From NCBI GenBank assembly GCA_944391215.1, contig CALXSR010000034.1, positions 1-35,978 on the forward strand: a DNA stretch of 35,978 bases. The letters are read 5' to 3'. The stretch is from an uncultured Clostridia bacterium (lineage in GTDB: Bacteria; Bacillota; Dehalobacteriia; UBA4068; CALXSR01). Below the pieces are notes generated by a model. The model worked only from the letters and a program-made list of their open reading frames with translations. It searched no databases and was not told the DNA's origin. The translations under genes and the position numbers were made by a program. Below, piece after piece: positions 1,518 to 10,082 of this stretch. Every line of letters begins with the position of its first letter. Position 1 is the first letter of the stretch.

Positions 1518-2795
1518 ATGATGTGGATAGGCGTTATTCTTGTCATATTAACTTTCTATTTTATTATCAAAAGGTATGAGCCAAAAATGGTTCTGTTTGT
1601 AAGCGGTTTTTTGATGTGTTTGCTGGGTGGGCAATGGCTAGGCGCTTTTGATAAATTCTATTCCGCACTCTTTTCCGGTTCTATTCCACAAATTATTTGT
1701 GCAGCGATGGGTTATGCATATGTGATGAGTTTTTGTAAATGCGATCTGCATTTAGCGGCGTTTTTGGTTAAAGTATTGTTAAAGGTTCGACCCTTGATTT
1801 TACCGGGGGTTATTATTTCAGCAGGGTTGGTATGTGGCGCATTAGGCAGTAATGCTGGCACAGCGGCAGCCTTGGGGCCTATTGTGATTCCTGTGATGTT
1901 AAAAGCAGGGATTCACCCCATTGTTGCGGCTTCTGCTTTAGCGTTGGGCGGGCAAGGTAATTATTTCGGCTTCGGAGCGCATGCTGCTATGATTGCCGAA
2001 ATTGCCGGAACAGATGTGCCGACGGTAGTATTTAAAAACCATTGGCCTATTGGGGCGATGGCTTATATTATTGTGATTATTTGTACGGTGGGTATTGCCA
2101 AATGGAAAAAAGAAGACAGAGGCTATGTGGCAGAAGATGTTGAGGTGGATGAAAGCAAAGTAATGCATAAAATAAATGGTTATTTTTGCATTTTACCTTT
2201 TGTGCCTATTTTAATGGTTATTTTAGGAATTTTTTTGAATCCTCGTTTGGGTTGGTTCCCTAAATTTTCGGTGCAACAAGCCATGTTGATTTCCACCTGT
2301 TGGGCCCTGGTGACTTGCCGGGTAAATCCGGCGGAGGGTATTCGGGCTTATGCGCAAGGCTTGGGACGCGGTTTGGGCGAAGTTGTTTCCTTAGTGGCTG
2401 CAGCCGGCGTTTTTACTTTAGGTATGGAAAAAGTTGGCATTACGCCTGCTTTGATAACTTTAATGGAATCAAATCCCAATATTGCGGTAATCGGAGCTGC
2501 GCTAGGGCCGGTGGTAATTGGTTTTCTTGGAGGATCGGGTGATGCCGCTACTTTGGCATTTAATGGCTCTGTTACGCCATTGGTTTCCGATTTTGGTTTA
2601 AATCCTATGAATATTGGTAGTTTAGCATATTTATGCGGTTGTTTCGGTCGTACTATGTCGCCCATTGCTGGTATTACCATTATTTGTGCCGGATTTGCTA
2701 ATGTAAACCCCATTGATGTGGCCAAAAGAAATATCCCTTCTAGTGTGTTAAGCGCCTTGTTGGCTATGATTTTACTGGGATATTTTTGGCATTGA
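1518..2795 (+). CDS. DcuC-family (C4-dicarboxylate-type) carrier, paralog 1
   Basis: This is a 425-residue polytopic inner-membrane carrier. The second half follows the anaerobic C4-dicarboxylate carrier DcuC: a GLGRGLGEVVSL block, AAGVFTLGM, a GSGDAATLAFNGSVTPL loop (DcuC has GSGNA...), then FGRTMSPIAG and an INP/VNPIDVAKR motif. The first half has a matching SNAGTAAALGPIVIPVM hairpin, consistent with the ion-transporter superfamily fold of two repeats. ATG 1518 follows GGGAGG. It is the first of three tandem paralogs, which keep these loops nearly unchanged. The hydrolases downstream suggest that the cargo is a dicarboxylate-like or amide-bearing acid rather than plain succinate or fumarate, but this is inference. 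Exchange, uptake or efflux mode cannot be told. Confidence 0.85.
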   Translation: MMWIGVILVILTFYFIIKRYEPKMVLFVSGFLMCLLGGQWLGAFDKFYSALFSGSIPQIICAAMGYAYVMSFCKCDLHLAAFLVKVLLKVRPLILPGVIISAGLVCGALGSNAGTAAALGPIVIPVMLKAGIHPIVAASALALGGQGNYFGFGAHAAMIAEIAGTDVPTVVFKNHWPIGAMAYIIVIICTVGIAKWKKEDRGYVAEDVEVDESKVMHKINGYFCILPFVPILMVILGIFLNPRLGWFPKFSVQQAMLISTCWALVTCRVNPAEGIRAYAQGLGRGLGEVVSLVAAAGVFTLGMEKVGITPALITLMESNPNIAVIGAALGPVVIGFLGGSGDAATLAFNGSVTPLVSDFGLNPMNIGSLAYLCGCFGRTMSPIAGITIICAGFANVNPIDVAKRNIPSSVLSALLAMILLGYFWH

Positions 2796-2825
2796 GTGAA
2801 AAAATAGTCGTTTTTGAAAGGAAAA

Positions 2826-2853
2826 AAGCGGCGTGTTTGCGCCGCTTCTTTCC
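2826..2853 (+). terminator. Terminator after DcuC paralog 1
   Basis: AAGCGGCG (2826-2833) pairs with CGCCGCTT (2840-2847) around a 6-nt loop, followed by a short, interrupted T tract (CTTCTTTCC). The GC-rich stem is strong, but the T run is weak. Confidence 0.7.
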
Positions 2854-2903
2854 TAAAATCCGCTTTAAAATGTAATAAGATAAAACTGAATAGTTTAAAA
2901 ATC

Positions 2904-2933
2904 TTGCAATTCTAGACAGTTTTTTTTTATAAT
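2904..2933 (+). promoter_or_regulatory. Promoter of DcuC paralog 2
   Basis: TTGCAA (2904-2909) and TATAAT (2928-2933) are separated by 18 bp. The block TTTTTATAATGGATT around the -10 recurs at the promoter of paralog 3, and both have a GACA element 10-15 nt before the -10 (AGACAG here, TGACATGTC there), which could be a shared regulator contact. Confidence 0.65.
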
Positions 2934-3155
2934 GGATTATGTATCTTAATGTTATAAAGATACATTTATCTTTTGGATCAGGTTTAATAAACTTTCTTTA
3001 TTAATAAAAAATAAAGGATGCTTTATTATATAATTATAGAATGAAAGGGGGACCGTATTTTAAAAGGTACACAAAAAAAGGAAGAAAAGAGTATGGTATT
3101 ATTTTTATTTTTATGTTAACTGCTCTTTTCAAAAATTAAAGGAGGCTACCTTATT
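2934..3155 (+). promoter_or_regulatory. Long structured leader of DcuC paralog 2
   Basis: From the mapped -10 the transcript would carry a leader of about 215 nt. In order it shows a hairpin GTATCTT/AAGATAC (2941-2947 with 2957-2963), an SD-like GAAAGGGGG (3043-3051) with no gene after it, and a possible long-range stem GAAAAGAG (3084-3091) with CTCTTTTC (3123-3130). A mini-ORF and the true AAAGGAGG follow. The 3' part resembles the leader of paralog 3. There is no match to a riboswitch class I know. Confidence 0.45.
3113..3139 (+). other. Possible leader peptide MLTALFKN before DcuC paralog 2
   Basis: An eight-codon ATG frame ends in the TAA that is part of TTAAAGGAGG, the ribosome-binding site of paralog 2. 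A homologous start (MSALIKN) occurs at the same place before paralog 3. No good ribosome-binding site precedes it, so translation is doubtful; conservation between the two leaders is the only support. Confidence 0.25.
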
Positions 3156-4439
3156 ATGATGTGGGTTGGTGTAATCCTCGTTATTTTAACTTTTTATTTC
3201 ATTATTAAACGTTTTGATCCTAAGATGATTCTTTTTGTTGCTGGTTTTCTAATGTGTTTGCTTTCCGGCCAATGGCTTGCTGCATTTGATAAATTTTATT
3301 CCGCTTTATTTACGGGTTCTATCCCGCAAATCATTTGCGCGGCCATGGGTTATGCTTACTTGATGAGCTTCTGCAAATGCGACCAACATTTAGCTAATTT
3401 CTTGGTCAAAATTCTAAAAAAAGTAAGAGCAATTATTATCCCAGGTGTTATGATTGCTGCTGGTCTTGTTGTTATGGCTTTACAAAGTAATGCTGGTACC
3501 GCAGCTGCTTTAGGGCCGATCGTTATTCCTGTTATGATTAAAGCTGGTATCCATCCTGTTATGGCTGCCACTGTTTTGGCTGTTGGTTCCCAAGGAAACT
3601 TCTTTGCTTTTGGTTCCCATGCTGCTATGATTGCTGAAATTGCTGGTGTTGACATTACAACAGTTGTGTTCCATGATCACTGGCCGATGGGGGCTATTGC
3701 CTATGTTATTGCAATCACATGCTTACTTGTTATTGCTAAAGTAAAAAAAGAAGGCTCCGGTTATGTTGATACCGATGGACAATTCGTAGAAGGGGAAACC
3801 TTAAAGAAAATTAATGGTTATTTCTGCTTCTTGCCTTTCTTGCCTATCATTTTGGTTCTTTTGGGTATCATTTTAAATCCGAGATTGGGTTGGTTCCCCA
3901 AATTTTCCGTACAACAAGCAATGTTGATTTCCACCTGCTGGGCTTTGATTACCTGCCGTGTTAATGTTGCACAAGGTATTAAAGCTTATACCAATGGTTT
4001 AGGCCGTGGTTTGGCGGATGTTGTTTCCTTGATTGCTGCTGCTGGTGTATTTACCGAAGGGATGAACTTGATCGGTATTACTCCTGCTTTAACTGCTGCT
4101 ATGGAAAGTAATCCTAACATCGCTGTTATTGGTGCTGCTGTTGGTCCTGCCGTTATCGCATTCTTGTGTGGTTCTGGTGATGCCGCTACCTTAGCGTTCA
4201 ATGGTTCTGTTACTCCACTAGTTTCTGAATTCGGTTTGAATCCAATGTGTATTGGTAGTATGGCTTACTTATGTGGTTGCCTAGGGCGCACCATGTCTCC
4301 GATTGCTGGTGTTACCATTATTTGCGCTGGTTTTGCAAAAATTAATCCTATCGAAATTTCCAAACGTGCGATTCCGGGTAGTATATTGTCTATTATTACA
4401 ATTATGATCTTGTTAGGTTATGTTTTATATCAATTCTAA
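3156..4439 (+). CDS. DcuC-family carrier, paralog 2
   Basis: This 427-residue integral membrane protein is very close to paralog 1 throughout, including the shared stretch NPRLGWFPKFSVQQAMLIST and the DcuC signature loops SNAGTAAALGPIVIPVM, GSGDAATLAFNGS and LGRTMSPIAG. The start ATG at 3156 follows AAAGGAGG by 10 nt; a second ATG is next to it. The gene is flanked by its own promoter and by a strong 13-bp terminator hairpin, so it is probably a single-gene transcript. Differences from paralog 1 are mild, for example FAFGSHAAM for FGFGAHAAM and a different charged cytoplasmic loop near residue 205-215. Substrate specificity may thus be related but not identical. The exact cargo is unknown. 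Confidence 0.85.
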   Translation: MMWVGVILVILTFYFIIKRFDPKMILFVAGFLMCLLSGQWLAAFDKFYSALFTGSIPQIICAAMGYAYLMSFCKCDQHLANFLVKILKKVRAIIIPGVMIAAGLVVMALQSNAGTAAALGPIVIPVMIKAGIHPVMAATVLAVGSQGNFFAFGSHAAMIAEIAGVDITTVVFHDHWPMGAIAYVIAITCLLVIAKVKKEGSGYVDTDGQFVEGETLKKINGYFCFLPFLPIILVLLGIILNPRLGWFPKFSVQQAMLISTCWALITCRVNVAQGIKAYTNGLGRGLADVVSLIAAAGVFTEGMNLIGITPALTAAMESNPNIAVIGAAVGPAVIAFLCGSGDAATLAFNGSVTPLVSEFGLNPMCIGSMAYLCGCLGRTMSPIAGVTIICAGFAKINPIEISKRAIPGSILSIITIMILLGYVLYQF

Positions 4440-4462
4440 TTTTGCATAAAACATATTACTGC

Positions 4463-4497
4463 AAAAGGGAGTAAGTTTTACTTACTCCCTTTTTTAT
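4463..4497 (+). terminator. Terminator after DcuC paralog 2
   Basis: A perfect 13-bp stem AAAAGGGAGTAAG/CTTACTCCCTTTT with a 5-nt loop (TTTTA) and a T tract forms a strong intrinsic terminator. Confidence 0.92.
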
Positions 4498-4585
4498 TGA
4501 AAATTTTTGGCATTTTGCGGAAAAATAAAAATATATTTGGTTATACAATTAAAGTAAATAGCTATAGGGAATTGCAAAAATAATA

Positions 4586-4614
4586 TTGATTTTTCTGACA
4601 TGTCTTTTTATAAT
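4586..4614 (+). promoter_or_regulatory. Promoter of DcuC paralog 3
   Basis: TTGATT (4586-4591) and TATAAT (4609-4614) are spaced 17 bp. The spacer contains GACATGTC, a perfect 8-bp palindrome (4597-4604), that parallels the AGACAG element of the paralog 2 promoter. The -10 flank is nearly the same as there. Confidence 0.65.
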
Positions 4615-4923
4615 GGATTTAGTACATAATTATACATCAGATAATAATTGTTTACATTTTTTAACGCTTCTTTACATCTTTTCTTTTACACACTAACACT
4701 ATCAGGCAGTTCCTTAATAATTTGGCAAAAAGATCTCTCCAATATCAAGAATTCTAATTTTGGATCGATTATTCCATATGGAAAATGGAATGAATTTAGA
4801 TGATTTTAGTAGAAAGGAGGATTTTGCTATATATTGATTTTGTGATAAGAGTTTTATTTTGCAATTAAGGCAATTATTTATTTTATGAGTGCTCTTATCA
4901 AAAATAAAGGAGGTTGCTTACAT
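4615..4923 (+). promoter_or_regulatory. Long leader of DcuC paralog 3
   Basis: This roughly 300-nt leader without a clear gene contains the 12-bp palindrome TTCCATATGGAA (4772-4783) and an SD-like AGAAAGGAGG (4811-4820) with only a weak TTG frame of 14 codons behind it. A stem GATAAGAG (4844-4851) with CTCTTATC (4892-4899) ends next to the true AAAGGAGG. The layout matches the leader of paralog 2 in order and spacing. Confidence 0.45.
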
Positions 4924-6189
4924 ATGATATGGATAGGTGTTGCCCTTGTTATTATTGCTTTTGTTTTAATTATCAAACGTTTTGAAGCTCGTGTTGTATT
5001 ATTTGCGACTGGTTTTGTTATGTGTTTGTGTGCCGGTCAGGTTTTGGAACCTATTGAGAAATTTTTCTCAGGCTTATTTTCCGGAAATTTACCACAAATT
5101 ATCTGTTCTGCCGTTGGGTATGCTGCTTTAATGGGTTATGGGAAATGTGACCAACACTTGGCACGAGCCCTGGTAAAAATTCTTGCTAAAATTAGACCTT
5201 TGATTATTCCTTTAGTTATTATATTTAGCGGTTTGGTAACAGCTTCAATTTCAAGTAATGCTGGTGCTGCAGCGGCTGTTGGCCCGATTTTTATTCCTGT
5301 TATGGTAAAAGCTGGTATCCATCCAGTTATGGCGGCGTCAGCTTTGGCTTTAGGATGTCAGGCGAACTATTTTGGTTTTGGTTCCCACCCTGCTATGATT
5401 TCTGAAATTACTGGCCTTGAAATTCAAGAAATCGTTATTAAATATAATTGGCCGGTTGGGGCTGTTTGCTTTTTAGTTGTTATTGCCTGTGCTGTCATTA
5501 TCGCTAAAGTTACTAAAACAGGTAGCGGTTATGTAGATGAATCTGGCGAATTTCGTGATGATAATGCAAATGCTAAAATTAATTACTATTTTGCCTTTTT
5601 ACCGTTTTTACCCATTATTGTTGTTTTATTAGGTGTTGTTGGTTGGATACCTAAATTGTCAGTACAGCAAGCAATGGTATTCTCTACAATGTGGGCATTC
5701 ATTACCACTAGAGTTTCTATTAAAGAAGCGATGAATGCATATTGTGCCGGTTTAGGACGTGGGTTAGCAGACGTTGTTTCTATTATTGCCTGTGCCGGTG
5801 TATTTACTCTTGGTATGGAAGCCATTGGTTTGACGCCAGCTTTGATTGCTATGATGGAAAGTAATCCGAATATTGCAATTTATGCTGCAGCAGTAGGTCC
5901 ATTGGTTATTGGGTTCTTATGCGGCTCTGGGGATGCTGCTACTTTGGCATTCAATGGCTCTATTACGCCGTTGGCAAGCAGCTTTGGTTTAGAACCAGTA
6001 AACTTAGGGTGCTTAGCTTATTTCTGTGGATGCTTTGGGCGCACAATGTCTCCTGTGGCGGGCGTTACCATTATCTGTGCTAGTTTGTCAAAAGTAAGTC
6101 CTATCGATATTTCTAAACGGGCATGGCCATCTAGTGTTTTAACTGCCGTAATTGCGATGATTGCGTTTGGATTTATTATGATGCCATAG
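4924..6189 (+). CDS. DcuC-family carrier, paralog 3
   Basis: This third tandem DcuC-type carrier has 421 residues from ATG 4924, which follows AAAGGAGG (4907-4914) by 9 nt. An in-frame ATG at 4885 would add 13 residues, but the added codons run through the ribosome-binding site, so the downstream start is preferred. It keeps the key loops (SNAGAAAAVGPIFIPVM, GSGDAATLAFNGSITPL, FGRTMSPVAG) but is more divergent than paralogs 1 and 2. The central loop lacks the NPRL insertion before the GW.PK.S motif, and HAAMIAEI is changed to HPAMISEI. These changes sit in the presumed substrate region, so it may carry a different acid. It is the carrier nearest the hydrolase cluster, separated from it by a terminator. 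Confidence 0.85.
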   Translation: MIWIGVALVIIAFVLIIKRFEARVVLFATGFVMCLCAGQVLEPIEKFFSGLFSGNLPQIICSAVGYAALMGYGKCDQHLARALVKILAKIRPLIIPLVIIFSGLVTASISSNAGAAAAVGPIFIPVMVKAGIHPVMAASALALGCQANYFGFGSHPAMISEITGLEIQEIVIKYNWPVGAVCFLVVIACAVIIAKVTKTGSGYVDESGEFRDDNANAKINYYFAFLPFLPIIVVLLGVVGWIPKLSVQQAMVFSTMWAFITTRVSIKEAMNAYCAGLGRGLADVVSIIACAGVFTLGMEAIGLTPALIAMMESNPNIAIYAAAVGPLVIGFLCGSGDAATLAFNGSITPLASSFGLEPVNLGCLAYFCGCFGRTMSPVAGVTIICASLSKVSPIDISKRAWPSSVLTAVIAMIAFGFIMMP

Positions 6190-6284: not shown

Positions 6285-6322
6285 AAAATGCCGTATAAAT
6301 ATTCATATACGGCATTTTCTTA
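6285..6322 (+). terminator. Terminator after DcuC paralog 3
   Basis: A perfect 12-bp stem AAAATGCCGTAT (6285-6296) with ATACGGCATTTT (6307-6318) has a 10-nt loop and a short T-rich tail. It separates the carrier from the hydrolases. Confidence 0.85.
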
Positions 6323-6465: not shown

Positions 6466-7278
6466 ATGGTTATATGGCCAAAGAACAAGAAGATTGCAGT
6501 AGTGCTAACATTTGATTTCGATGGAGAAACGTATTGGATTGGTAAAAATGAAAGAAGCACGAAAGTATTTGCAAACTTATCTAGAGGGCAATATGGACCG
6601 CATGAAGGGATTTATCGGGTCCTGAATATGTTGGATGAATTGGAAGTGAAGGGGACCTTCTTTGTACCCGGCTATATTGCGGAAACCTATCAGGATCAAG
6701 TAAAAATGATCCATGAGAAGGGACATGAAATTGGGTATCATGGTTATATGCACGAACAAAAAAGAGGCATTAGCCGGGAAGAAGAATTGGCACGCATGGA
6801 AAAATGCGAGGCCATTTTAGCCGGTATTACTGGGAAAAAACCGGTAGGCCATCGTGGTCCTGGTGGTATTATTCATCCTTTTACAATGGAAATGATTGCA
6901 GAACGCGGTTATCTTTATAGCTCTAATATGAAAGATACGAACTCTCCTTATATTCATGAAGTGGCTGGTAAAAAAATTGTGGAATTGCCTACAGATGAAT
7001 ATTATGATGATGCTACCTATTATTGGTTCTCCTTAACGCAGCCGGTTCATAGAGACATCGTTCCACCGGAAACCGTAAATGAATGTTGGGGTTTGGATTT
7101 TGAACAATTATTAGATGAACCTGGCAGCATTATGGTATTGCATATGCATCCGCAACTAATCGGGCGTGCTGGTAGAATTCGTGCTTTGGGTGAATTTGTT
7201 GGTTATATGAAAGCGCATGGCGCTTGGATTGCGACCGGTGAAGAAGTAGCCAATTATGTTTTGGCGCAAAGTAAATAG
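6466..7278 (+). CDS. NodB-fold (polysaccharide deacetylase superfamily) hydrolase, type A, copy 1
   Basis: The 270-residue cytoplasmic protein has no signal peptide. ATG 6466 follows AAAGGAGG by 7 nt; the longer frame from 6322 contains a terminator tail and is rejected. It has the NodB motifs: TFDFDGE (D17 presumed base, D19 metal ligand), HEIGYHGYMHE (metal ligands H92 and H96), GHRGPGG as motif 3, and HMHPQL near residue 225. The order and spacing match the PuuE allantoinase / H. pylori PgdA / cyclic-imide hydrolase branch rather than secreted chitin or peptidoglycan deacetylases. It would hydrolyse an amide or ring-amide bond with one divalent metal. The substrate is not known. It forms a pair with the next gene (35-nt gap) and is duplicated downstream. 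Confidence 0.85.
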   Translation: MVIWPKNKKIAVVLTFDFDGETYWIGKNERSTKVFANLSRGQYGPHEGIYRVLNMLDELEVKGTFFVPGYIAETYQDQVKMIHEKGHEIGYHGYMHEQKRGISREEELARMEKCEAILAGITGKKPVGHRGPGGIIHPFTMEMIAERGYLYSSNMKDTNSPYIHEVAGKKIVELPTDEYYDDATYYWFSLTQPVHRDIVPPETVNECWGLDFEQLLDEPGSIMVLHMHPQLIGRAGRIRALGEFVGYMKAHGAWIATGEEVANYVLAQSK

Positions 7279-7313
7279 AAAAATCAGTATCGAATATTAA
7301 AGGAGGAAATAAA

Positions 7314-8186
7314 ATGAATAATACTTGGCCCAGAATGCAAGTAAAATGGCCTGATAATAAAAAAATTGGAATTTTAATGGCTTTTGATGTGGATGCTGAA
7401 TGCCTTTGGACCCAACGGGGCGATGGAAATCGAGACCATATTACGAATATTTCTCGTGGTACTTATGGCCCTAAAACTGGGTTGCCTCGTATTTTAAAAA
7501 TGTTGGATGCGCATAATATTAAAGCAACTTTCTATGTTCCTGGTTGGACGGCAGAACAACATCCAAAAATTATTAAAGAATTGGCCGATCGCGGTCATGA
7601 AATTGGTTTCCATGGTTATGAGCATGAAGAAAAAGGCGCCAATAGTCGGGAAGAAGAAGAAGCCATTATGGATCGGGCGGAAAAATGTTTGCGTGATATT
7701 GCCGGTGTGCAACCGGTAGGCCATCGTGGTCCTGGCGGCGTTATGTATGATTATAGTGTGGAAATGTTTTATAAAAGAGGATATATCTATAGCTCCAACC
7801 ATCGTGATGTAGATGGTCCTTTCTTCCATCGAATCAATGGCAAAGAAATTCCTTTCTTGGAATTTCCAAAAGACTCTTTATATGATGATGGTTTTTATAT
7901 GTGCACGCTTTCCGAACCAATGCGTGAATCTATGAAATCGCCGCGAGAAGCAATTAAAATGATGAAAGCGGAATTTGATGGTTTGGCGGAAGAAGGCGGC
8001 CGGATGATTACTTTTGTATTCCATCCGCAATTATCAGGGCATCCGGGTCGTTTACGCGTCTTGTCTGAATTTATTGGCTATATGAAAGCACATGGGGCTT
8101 GTTTCATGCGTTCTGATGAAGCTGCTCGTTATTTAATTGAGCAACACGGGCCTTTTGAGCCAATTGAATTCCAATTCGATAAATAA
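7314..8186 (+). CDS. NodB-fold hydrolase, type B, copy 1
   Basis: The 290-residue soluble protein starts at ATG 7314 behind AAAGGAGG. Motifs are AFDVDAE (D25 and D27), the type-B block LWTQRGDGNRDHITN, HEIGFHGYEHE with its HxxxH metal pair, GHRGPGG, and VFHPQLSGHPGR near the C-terminal region. It ends with a type-B tail (EQHGPFEP...). The RGDGN.DHITN block, which is missing from the A proteins, lies directly after the metal-binding aspartates and so probably shapes the active site or oligomer interface. It has about eight extra N-terminal residues compared with its paralog. It is likely co-transcribed with the type-A gene before it, suggesting that A and B form a heteromer or act on linked substrates. 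PuuE/HpPgdA/cyclic-imide-hydrolase-like function is inferred from motif layout. Confidence 0.85.
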   Translation: MNNTWPRMQVKWPDNKKIGILMAFDVDAECLWTQRGDGNRDHITNISRGTYGPKTGLPRILKMLDAHNIKATFYVPGWTAEQHPKIIKELADRGHEIGFHGYEHEEKGANSREEEEAIMDRAEKCLRDIAGVQPVGHRGPGGVMYDYSVEMFYKRGYIYSSNHRDVDGPFFHRINGKEIPFLEFPKDSLYDDGFYMCTLSEPMRESMKSPREAIKMMKAEFDGLAEEGGRMITFVFHPQLSGHPGRLRVLSEFIGYMKAHGACFMRSDEAARYLIEQHGPFEPIEFQFDK

Positions 8187-8204
8187 GGAAATACGAAATA
8201 AAAT

Positions 8205-8243
8205 AAAAAAAAGAAGGTAGAATGATGTTCTACCTTCTTTTTT
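8205..8243 (+). terminator. Terminator after the first hydrolase pair
   Basis: GAAGGTAGAA (8213-8222) pairs with TTCTACCTTC (8228-8237) around TGATG, with A and T runs extending the stem and giving the tail. It is strong and closes the first A-B operon. Confidence 0.92.
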
Positions 8244-8253
8244 AATATATTAA

Positions 8254-8281
8254 AACAGAATATTCTGTTAACAACTATAAT
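8254..8281 (+). promoter_or_regulatory. 16-bp palindromic operator and -10 of the second hydrolase pair
   Basis: AACAGAATATTCTGTT (8254-8269) is a perfect 16-bp palindrome. It is followed by TATAAT (8276-8281), so the palindrome covers the -35 and spacer region. A bound dimeric repressor here would block RNA polymerase. No such palindrome precedes the first pair, so the two copies may be regulated separately. Confidence 0.6.
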
Positions 8282-8355
8282 ATATTGCATTTTTTAATTT
8301 AATTTGTTAGAATTTTCTAAACTGATGATAGAAAATGGGGAAAAGGAGGGATTTT

Positions 8356-9180
8356 ATGCTACAGTGGCCGGATGGGAAAAAAATTGCGGTAGCTTTTACC
8401 TTTGATTTTGATGCAGAAACTTATTGGACTGGCCGTGATGCGCAAGTACTTTCTGCCCCGGGAAACACGATGCGGGGAGAATATGGGGCCAAAGAAGGCA
8501 TTTATCGCGTATTGGATTTGCTAAAGGAAAGCCAAATAAAAGGTACTTTTTTTGTGCCGGGTTGGGTAGCGGAAAAGTATGCGCAGCAGGTGGCGCTTAT
8601 TCATGCCGGCGGCCATGAAATAGGCTATCATGGTTATTTACATGAGCAGGTACGAGGGATTGCTAAAGAAGAGGAAGCCGTACGTATGGCACAGTGCGAA
8701 GAGATTATGCAATCCATTACCGGGCGGAAAATGGTGGGTTATCGTGCTCCTGGTGGGGTGATGCATCCTTTTACCGTTGAACTATTAAAAGAAAGAAATT
8801 ATTTCTATAGTTCTAGCATGAAAGATGCTGATTCTCCTTATATTCATAAAATAAATGGTATGGAAAGCGATATTGTAGAATTATGTAGCGACCAATCTTT
8901 AGATGATAATACTTATTTTTTCTTCTGTTTAACGGCGCCTTATGTTAGGCGTGGTATTAACCCACCTTGCGTCATGTTAGAATGCTGGCAAAGAGATTTT
9001 GCGGTTTTAAAAGAAGAAGGCGGGCGTATTATGATTATAAAATGTCATCCGCAACTGATTGGACGACCTTTACGGATAGAGGCCTTACGGGAATTTATTT
9101 CTTTTGTATTAAAAGAAGATGCGTGGGTTACCACTTGTGAGGAAATTGCCCGTTATGTATTGGCTGAAAAACAAGGGTAG
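8356..9180 (+). CDS. NodB-fold hydrolase, type A, copy 2
   Basis: The 274-residue soluble protein starts at ATG 8356 after AAAAGGAGGG; an earlier in-frame ATG (8335) precedes that site and is not used. It is a clear paralog of the type-A protein at 6466: TFDFDAE (D17 and D19), YWTGRD, HEIGYHGYLHEQ with the HxxxH pair, and PFT..L..R.Y.YSS.MKD.DSPYIH. Motif 3 is YRAPGG in place of HRGPGG, and motif 5 is KCHPQL in place of HMHPQL. A cysteine or lysine near the catalytic His could alter substrate choice. The gene has its own promoter and palindromic operator and a terminator before it. Its stop touches the ribosome-binding site of the type-B gene that follows, so the two are tightly coupled. Confidence 0.85.
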   Translation: MLQWPDGKKIAVAFTFDFDAETYWTGRDAQVLSAPGNTMRGEYGAKEGIYRVLDLLKESQIKGTFFVPGWVAEKYAQQVALIHAGGHEIGYHGYLHEQVRGIAKEEEAVRMAQCEEIMQSITGRKMVGYRAPGGVMHPFTVELLKERNYFYSSSMKDADSPYIHKINGMESDIVELCSDQSLDDNTYFFFCLTAPYVRRGINPPCVMLECWQRDFAVLKEEGGRIMIIKCHPQLIGRPLRIEALREFISFVLKEDAWVTTCEEIARYVLAEKQG

Positions 9181-9191
9181 GAGGGGTAGTT

Positions 9192-10019
9192 ATGGTCATT
9201 TGGCCAAATGGAAAAAGAATTGCCGTTATGATGTCTTTTGATGTTGATGCGGAATTGATGTGGTTGCAAAGAGGCGATGGAAACGCGGATCATATTACCA
9301 ATTTATCTAAAGGCGCTTATGGCCCTAAAGAAGGGATTCCACGCTTGGTGCGTATTTTAAACAAACATAATGTAAAGGGCACTTTTTATGTACCGGCTTG
9401 GGTAGCGGAACAGCATACAGAGGAAATTCGTTTATTGGTCCAGGAGGGCCATGAGATTGCTTATCATGGTTATTACCATGAAAGCGAAGGGGGCCGTCCG
9501 CAAAAAGAAATGGAAGAAATTATGGAGAAAAGCGAGCAAGTGATGCAAAAGCTATACGGTATTAAAATGGTAGGGCATCGTTCTCCGGATGCCGCTTATA
9601 ATGATTATAGTATTGCGATGTATTATAACCGTGGATATTTTTATAGTTCCGATGCCCGTGATTATGATAAACCATATTTCCAAAAAATAAATGGGAAAGA
9701 AATTCCTTTTGTGGAATTTCCGAAAGAATCCTTATATGATGATGCAACTTATTATTTTGTTACGGATAGTTTGCCGGTAAGGGATAATATCAAACCGCCT
9801 AGTTTCGTTTTAGAAAATTTAAAAGCAGATTTTGATGCTTTGGCAAATCTAGGAGATCGTTGTATTTCATATATTTTTCATCCACAATTATCTGGTAGGC
9901 CAGGCCGGGCTGGTGCGATTGACGAGCTGTTAACTTATATGTTGGAAAGAGGGGCTTGGGTTGCCCCAGCAAAGGAAGTGGCAGCTTACATGATTGCCCA
10001 ACATGGCCCTTTCCTATAA
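9192..10019 (+). CDS. NodB-fold hydrolase, type B, copy 2, with altered motif 3
   Basis: The 275-residue soluble protein starts at ATG 9192, 11 nt after the previous stop, with GGAGGGG as ribosome-binding site. It shares the type-B features: SFDVDAE (D17 and D19), LQRGDGNADHITN, HEIAYHGYYHE with HxxxH, IFHPQLSGRPGR and the tail AQHGPF. The motif-3 loop reads GHRSPDAAY, whereas the three other hydrolases have a Gly-Gly loop (HRGPGG or YRAPGG). This loop forms one wall of the active-site groove in the NodB fold, so a substrate different from copy 1 is likely. The metal ligands are all kept, so activity is expected. Confidence 0.85.
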   Translation: MVIWPNGKRIAVMMSFDVDAELMWLQRGDGNADHITNLSKGAYGPKEGIPRLVRILNKHNVKGTFYVPAWVAEQHTEEIRLLVQEGHEIAYHGYYHESEGGRPQKEMEEIMEKSEQVMQKLYGIKMVGHRSPDAAYNDYSIAMYYNRGYFYSSDARDYDKPYFQKINGKEIPFVEFPKESLYDDATYYFVTDSLPVRDNIKPPSFVLENLKADFDALANLGDRCISYIFHPQLSGRPGRAGAIDELLTYMLERGAWVAPAKEVAAYMIAQHGPFL

Positions 10020-10039: not shown

Positions 10040-10082
10040 CCAAATACCGCATTTCTAATTTAGAAATGCGGTATTTGGTTTT
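10040..10082 (+). terminator. Terminator after the second hydrolase pair
   Basis: A perfect 19-bp inverted repeat (10040-10058 with 10060-10078) around a single T is followed by TTTTT. In RNA the central A/U pairs open to form the loop. It separates the hydrolases from the ctsR operon. Confidence 0.9.

Follow-up and report, generated by a model that had tools for sequence, protein, structure and literature searches.

The NodB1.2 group of NodB-fold hydrolases includes the PuuE-type enzymes and the proteins of structures 3RXZ and 3QBU; few of its substrates are known, and 3RXZ and 3QBU are its only members with all five active residues (PMC10967932). Here we describe a two-gene unit of this group, the A-B pair, found twice (A1-B1 and A2-B2, positions 6466 to 10019) on a 35,978-nucleotide stretch of DNA from an uncultured Clostridia bacterium (contig CALXSR010000034.1, assembly GCA_944391215.1), hereafter the window.

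The 'polysaccharide deacetylase' of Mycobacterium smegmatis (3RXZ) is the best match in sequence and fold (35% identity to A1, 31% to B1) and shares all five active residues with A and B. Unlike the A-B pair, it was deposited with one chain type, and it is uncharacterised; we know of no partner paralogue for it. HpPgdA of Helicobacter pylori (HP0310, 3QBU) resembles A and B in its fold, its metal-site residues, its enclosed site, which would suit a small molecule, and the lack of a signal peptide, but it is about 25% identical to them and forms a homotetramer of one protein, with a described arm of 25 residues (PMC3084791). PuuE allantoinase (3CL6) has the same fold, belongs to the same branch and acts on a small, cyclic substrate; it is reported to be non-metal-dependent (PMC10967932), whereas A and B keep the metal triad. 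An identity with PuuE (TIGR03212) was ruled out, the window proteins scoring 69-89 bits (A1, 81) against a cut-off of 424.6. HxnM of Aspergillus, a cyclic imide hydrolase, is 64% identical to the Pseudomonas putida imidase (AAY98498), and both lie in the same HpPgdA-like branch as A and B, with probably the same chemistry (PMC9304392); this likeness runs via HpPgdA and not through direct alignment, and both enzymes, unlike A-B, are single proteins. The original prediction for this locus, made from the sequence alone, had named PuuE, HpPgdA and the cyclic imide hydrolases as relatives, and the fold matches and PMC9304392 place the proteins in that branch. It had also held that the pair was not known as a unit; in the literature we likewise found no description of an A-B-like pair, of NodB heteromers, or of links to an imidase or a hydantoin racemase.

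The four genes of the window are the following:
6466..7278, + strand: A1, NodB-fold hydrolase of 270 amino acids (open reading frame, PF01522, AlphaFold2 (AF2) model)
7314..8186, + strand: B1, NodB-fold hydrolase of 290 amino acids, 35 nt past A1 (open reading frame, PF01522, AF2 model)
8356..9180, + strand: A2, second A protein, 274 amino acids, alternative ATG at 8335 (open reading frame, PF01522)
9192..10019, + strand: B2, second B protein, 275 amino acids, 11 nt past A2 (open reading frame, PF01522)

A longer frame for A1 begins at 6322, and AAAGGAGG precedes the ATG at 6466. All four proteins matched PF01522 (NodB) at 70-79 bits (cut-off 23.1) and inspection of their sequences revealed no hydrophobic N-terminal signal, in agreement with the predicted row of four signal-less NodB-fold proteins in the order A1-B1-A2-B2.

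Conservation and history of the A-B pair

The pair is inherited as a unit. Exact peptides of B1 alone matched nothing in the genomes, and an alignment search of genome contigs returned 80 loci. In the seven nearest (44-54% identity to B1), belonging to Eubacterium UBA5416, Eubacterium S30_Bin6, Lachnoclostridium An14, a Lachnospiraceae metagenome-assembled genome (MAG), an Oscillospiraceae MAG, Phascolarctobacterium and Acidaminococcus, an A gene stood in every case directly 5' of a B gene; the remaining 73 comprised four with a different tandem pair, one in which two genes of the family lie some 4 kb from each other, and otherwise single genes. Altogether we counted 11 A-B pairs, three in the window genome and eight in other Bacillota genomes (G705 included), and all 11 were adjacent with A first. 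The stop and start codons overlapped in each of the eight pairs outside the window genome: at six of the seven nearest loci B starts within the stop codon of A (ATGA, a 4-bp overlap), and in Phascolarctobacterium the junction reads TGATG, or is a 7-bp overlap. No orphan A or B was found. The adjacency expected by the original prediction thus recurred, in fixed order and with overlapping stop and start, in 8 of 8 other genomes carrying these clades. The distribution is patchy: the 40 relatives of the window genome gave no match of A/B grade, and among 299 genomes of the An14 family five had strong matches, all of them tandem pairs (two A-B, in the query genome and one other, and three of the type called X-Y below).

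In the phylogenetic tree, the A proteins (99/94) and the B proteins (100/99) each formed one clade, the two being sisters, and a single Emergencia protein (L073) branched next to A+B. The A and B topologies mirrored each other except that the Oscillospiraceae and Eubacterium S30 members were placed differently. Constraining A1 and B1 to one clade cost 180 log units and was rejected (p-AU, the approximately unbiased test, 0.0002). A1 groups with A2 and B1 with B2, and what was duplicated is the two-gene pair, as had been predicted; four independent copies of one gene were ruled out by the same tree. From the sister clades, the largely mirrored topologies and the rejected constraint it follows that the pair arose by one tandem duplication long ago; the A-B unit is ancient and common to several Bacillota families. 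Since A and B lie side by side in all genomes found to carry the pair, they would also appear to be working partners.

A third pair, A3-B3, occurs in the window genome (G000), where it spans the ends of two contigs:
L032:1-2004 and L031:1-1169 (contigs C43 and C29): A3-B3, ends sharing 42 bp

A3 is cut off by the end of C43, and B3 lies at the start of C29; the 42 shared bases are identical, and once joined the sequence reads sigma-54 regulator, DcuC, A3, B3, with A3 complete. The identities were 56% for A1-A2, 53% for B1-B2, 43% for A1-B1 and 41% for A2-B2 (39-43% for A-B overall), and they rose to 66% for A1-A3 and 71% for B1-B3. In the tree A1 and A3 were sisters, as were B1 and B3, with A2 and B2 outside. 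By these groupings the pair was copied as a unit twice in this genome, first as pair 2 versus the ancestor of pairs 1 and 3, and then as pair 1 versus pair 3. The predicted two tandem copies are therefore duplicated pairs, but the adjoining ones are not the most recent duplicates, and a recent tandem duplication was ruled out by the closeness of pair 1 to pair 3 on another contig.

Active sites and the parallel X-Y pair

The set D17, D19, H92, H96, R130 and H228 (A1 numbering) was present in A1, B1, A2 and B2, which thus hold the Asp-His-His triad D19/H92/H96 and the catalytic D17 and H228 of NodB proteins. These residues were intact in 11 of 11 B and 10 of 11 A proteins, the exception being A3, which has a conservative D17E change at the catalytic Asp. 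The AF2 model of A1 (predicted local distance difference test, pLDDT, 90.8) gave template modelling (TM) scores of 0.94 to 3RXZ, its best match, 0.88 to 3QBU and 0.85 to 3CL6; for B1 (pLDDT 87.7) the values were 0.87, again to 3RXZ as the best, 0.82 and 0.76, respectively.

Two columns tell all or nearly all A proteins from B: K156 in A versus R164 in B, and position 226, two residues before the acid His, which is K in ten A proteins, H in A1, and V or I in B. Judging from strand periodicity in the predicted fold, residue 226 would face the pocket. The predicted motifs were all located in the window, namely TFDF-D-G/A-E and YW.GKN / YW.GRD in A1/A2, and FDVDAE, QRGDGN.DHITN and QHGPF in B1/B2; QRGDGN is, however, not general among B proteins, B3 carrying QRSNIDDYKDHITN in its place.

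A second tandem NodB pair, X-Y, was found in 13 cases, in Bacillota (G063, G187, G426, G427, G431 with three, G491, G524 and G696) and in Burkholderia, Variovorax and Pseudomonas:
L051:8941-10643, L053:8896-10590, L090, L133, L134, L143 and L158-L165: X-Y loci

X (97/89) and Y (90/83) each formed one clade. As in A-B, the tandem paralogues are kept adjacent and have similar neighbours (amino-acid transport, Asp/Glu racemase), but they arose by a separate duplication: a single event behind both pairs was ruled out, since A+B and X+Y each form their own clade, the sister relation of the two pair clades being borderline (p-AU 0.045). The pairs differ also in their active sites. All six residues were intact in 13 of 13 X proteins, and at least one catalytic or metal-binding residue was lost in 13 of 13 Y proteins (D17 to N and H228 to D or T in Bacillota, metal ligands in the proteobacterial members), a loss seen in no B. 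Keeping a catalytically dead partner beside an active one typically marks a heteromer. Trypanosome deoxyhypusine synthase offers a comparison for such live/dead pairing of subunits (PMC3663545). With Y degenerate throughout and X never so, an active/inactive heteromer is likely for X-Y; for A-B, where both proteins are intact, the comparison is only an analogy, by which a heteromer is plausible. Bacilliculturomica massiliensis (G431) has three X-Y pairs in one genome (contigs C16 and C21, L160-L162), so that multiplication of a pair is not confined to the window genome.

Function of the pair and competing explanations

Transporter genes stand beside the pairs. Four DcuC-family genes adjoin the pairs of the window genome, each of the three pairs lying near one, and a DcuC-family gene is accompanied by an M20 peptidase near A-B at L066 and by an M20-like neighbour at L166. 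A polar amino-acid ATP-binding cassette (ABC) transporter flanks A-B in Eubacterium UBA5416, Lachnospiraceae and Phascolarctobacterium; in the last it is of family 3 and is followed 3' by an Asp/Glu/hydantoin racemase, the same set as in the X-Y operon of G187. Among the genes near other pairs are arginine-deiminase-like ones, an amidohydrolase and a 2,4-diaminopentanoate dehydrogenase, and single relatives on plasmids adjoin genes for N-carbamoyl hydrolase, dihydroorotase, racemase, amidase, isoaspartyl peptidase, ArgH and amino-acid ABC transporters. Near X-Y we found an ArgH-like lyase, malic enzyme and sodium:alanine symporters; the lyase and malic enzyme, which adjoin several X-Y pairs, set these apart from A-B. 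The ArgH-like genes are as follows:
L163:5487-6950 and L158:7543-8934: argH equivalogs
L160:7753-9186: Pfam lyase domains

They belong to clusters of catabolic appearance that also hold X-Y, malic enzyme and amino-acid symporters; no arginine biosynthesis genes were noticed alongside, and they may cleave another N-substituted aspartate. Taken with the relatives, the DcuC and amino-acid transporters, the racemase and the amidases suggest that small cyclic amides or imides are broken down. A-B would thus act on such derivatives of dicarboxylic or arginine-type amino acids, none of which is singled out, and probably breaks small ring-shaped amides inside anaerobic gut-type bacteria.

The explanation we favour, with a probability of roughly one half, is that A and B are two paralogous subunits of one cytoplasmic, metal-dependent NodB1.2 amidohydrolase which opens an imported cyclic amino-acid derivative. 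They would be made from adjacent, usually translationally coupled genes; since their closest characterised relatives form homotetramers, the likeliest assembly is a mixed tetramer. Each subunit would hold one metal through D19/H92/H96, with D17 as base and H228 as acid, and hydrolyse an imported small cyclic imide, ureide or amide of the kind named above, the product going to anaerobic catabolism; B would have kept the ancestral pocket, and A would have gained the basic residue two positions before the acid His.

Several observations weigh against this proposal. A and B each have a complete active site and could each work alone, and the D17E change in A3 touches the catalytic Asp. The complex, like the metal, the ring opening and the class of substrate, is something we infer. 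In the window, A and B do not overlap but stand 35 nt (pair 1) and 11 nt (pair 2) apart. The neighbours vary among genomes, so that the substrate may vary too, and the lone Emergencia protein, basal to A+B, indicates that a single protein can suffice.

The strongest rival, which we regard as less likely, is that A and B are separate homomeric enzymes for two successive hydrolyses in one pathway; B might, for example, open a neutral ring (imide or hydantoin) and A cleave the carboxylated half-amide or carbamoyl acid, replacing the amidase of the single relatives. Two intact active sites agree with this, as do the amidase, N-carbamoyl hydrolase, isoaspartyl peptidase or FmdA-like genes adjoining single relatives and the order imidase, then amide hydrolase of HxnM-HxnN in Aspergillus (PMC9304392). 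A basic residue 226 in A would suit a carboxylate product, but its role is read only from its strand position in the predicted fold. Fixed adjacency and overlapping stop and start codons suggest instead stoichiometric synthesis, and two-step catalysis would leave the degenerate partner of X-Y inexplicable.

It is considerably less probable that A and B are plain paralogues with unrelated substrates, linked only by an operon that spreads as a block through horizontal transfer. The patchy distribution (0 of 40 window-genome relatives, 2 of 299 An14-family genomes) would fit such spreading, but 11 of 11 pairs are intact over several families with largely mirrored trees, orphans were not found, and one genome keeps three pairs. 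Least probable is that these proteins act on precursors of the cell wall or envelope as N-acyl or polysaccharide deacetylases, which PF01522 membership and the automatic annotation 'polysaccharide deacetylase' would suggest: no signal peptide was seen, the best deacetylase equivalogs reached at most 86 bits against cut-offs of 237-400 (NCBIfam), on which grounds a CE4 identity was rejected, the closest folds are NodB1.2 proteins with enclosed pockets (PMC3084791, PMC10967932), and the neighbours serve transport and amino-acid catabolism.

Returning to the two-subunit enzyme, a wider form of it, which we hold more tentatively, is that obligate enzymes of two subunits evolved from NodB hydrolases on two separate occasions, A-B retaining both live sites and X-Y pairing a live subunit with a degenerate one; they would open cyclic derivatives of amino acids in gut-type anaerobes and in certain soil bacteria. 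Proteins of the NodB1.2 branch are routinely annotated as polysaccharide deacetylases, and A-B and X-Y occur in amino-acid catabolic contexts. A conserved unit with both sites live, beside a parallel one with a degenerate partner, permits a direct test of NodB heteromers, and the two pairs give a handle on an unknown catabolic route for arginine, aspartate or hydantoin-like ring compounds in gut anaerobes.

Transcription units and upstream genes

Hairpins and DcuC genes accompany the window pairs:
6285..6318, + strand: intrinsic-terminator-like hairpin between the third DcuC gene and A1 (hairpin scan)
8207..8243, listed on the - strand, near-palindromic with a T run on both sides: intrinsic-terminator-like hairpin between B1 and A2 (hairpin scan and sequence)
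10040..10078, + strand: 17-bp perfect hairpin followed by T5, 3' of B2 (terminator by inspection; absent from the scan list)
1518..2795, + strand: DcuC-family transporter 1, 76% identical to copy 2 (profile match)
3156..4439, + strand: DcuC-family transporter 2 (profile match)
4885..6189, + strand: DcuC-family transporter 3, directly 5' of the A1-B1 unit (profile match)

With a hairpin 3' of each pair and one between DcuC and A1, A1-B1 and A2-B2 each look like a separate transcription unit. No sigma-54 promoter consensus was found at the start of any pair gene and the window counts were near chance; on L032 such sites exceed chance, but none was placed at a pair promoter. The three tandem DcuC-family genes at 1518-6189 are 62-76% identical, an unusual local amplification directly upstream of the pairs, and a fourth precedes A3. 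Further upstream, positions 312-1243 encode two successive small membrane proteins that look like the SpmA/SpmB type; the second carries a Gate (nucleoside recognition) domain. Positions 35-236 hold a 5S rRNA and a tRNA-Asn, where an rRNA operon probably ends, just ahead of the DcuC cluster.

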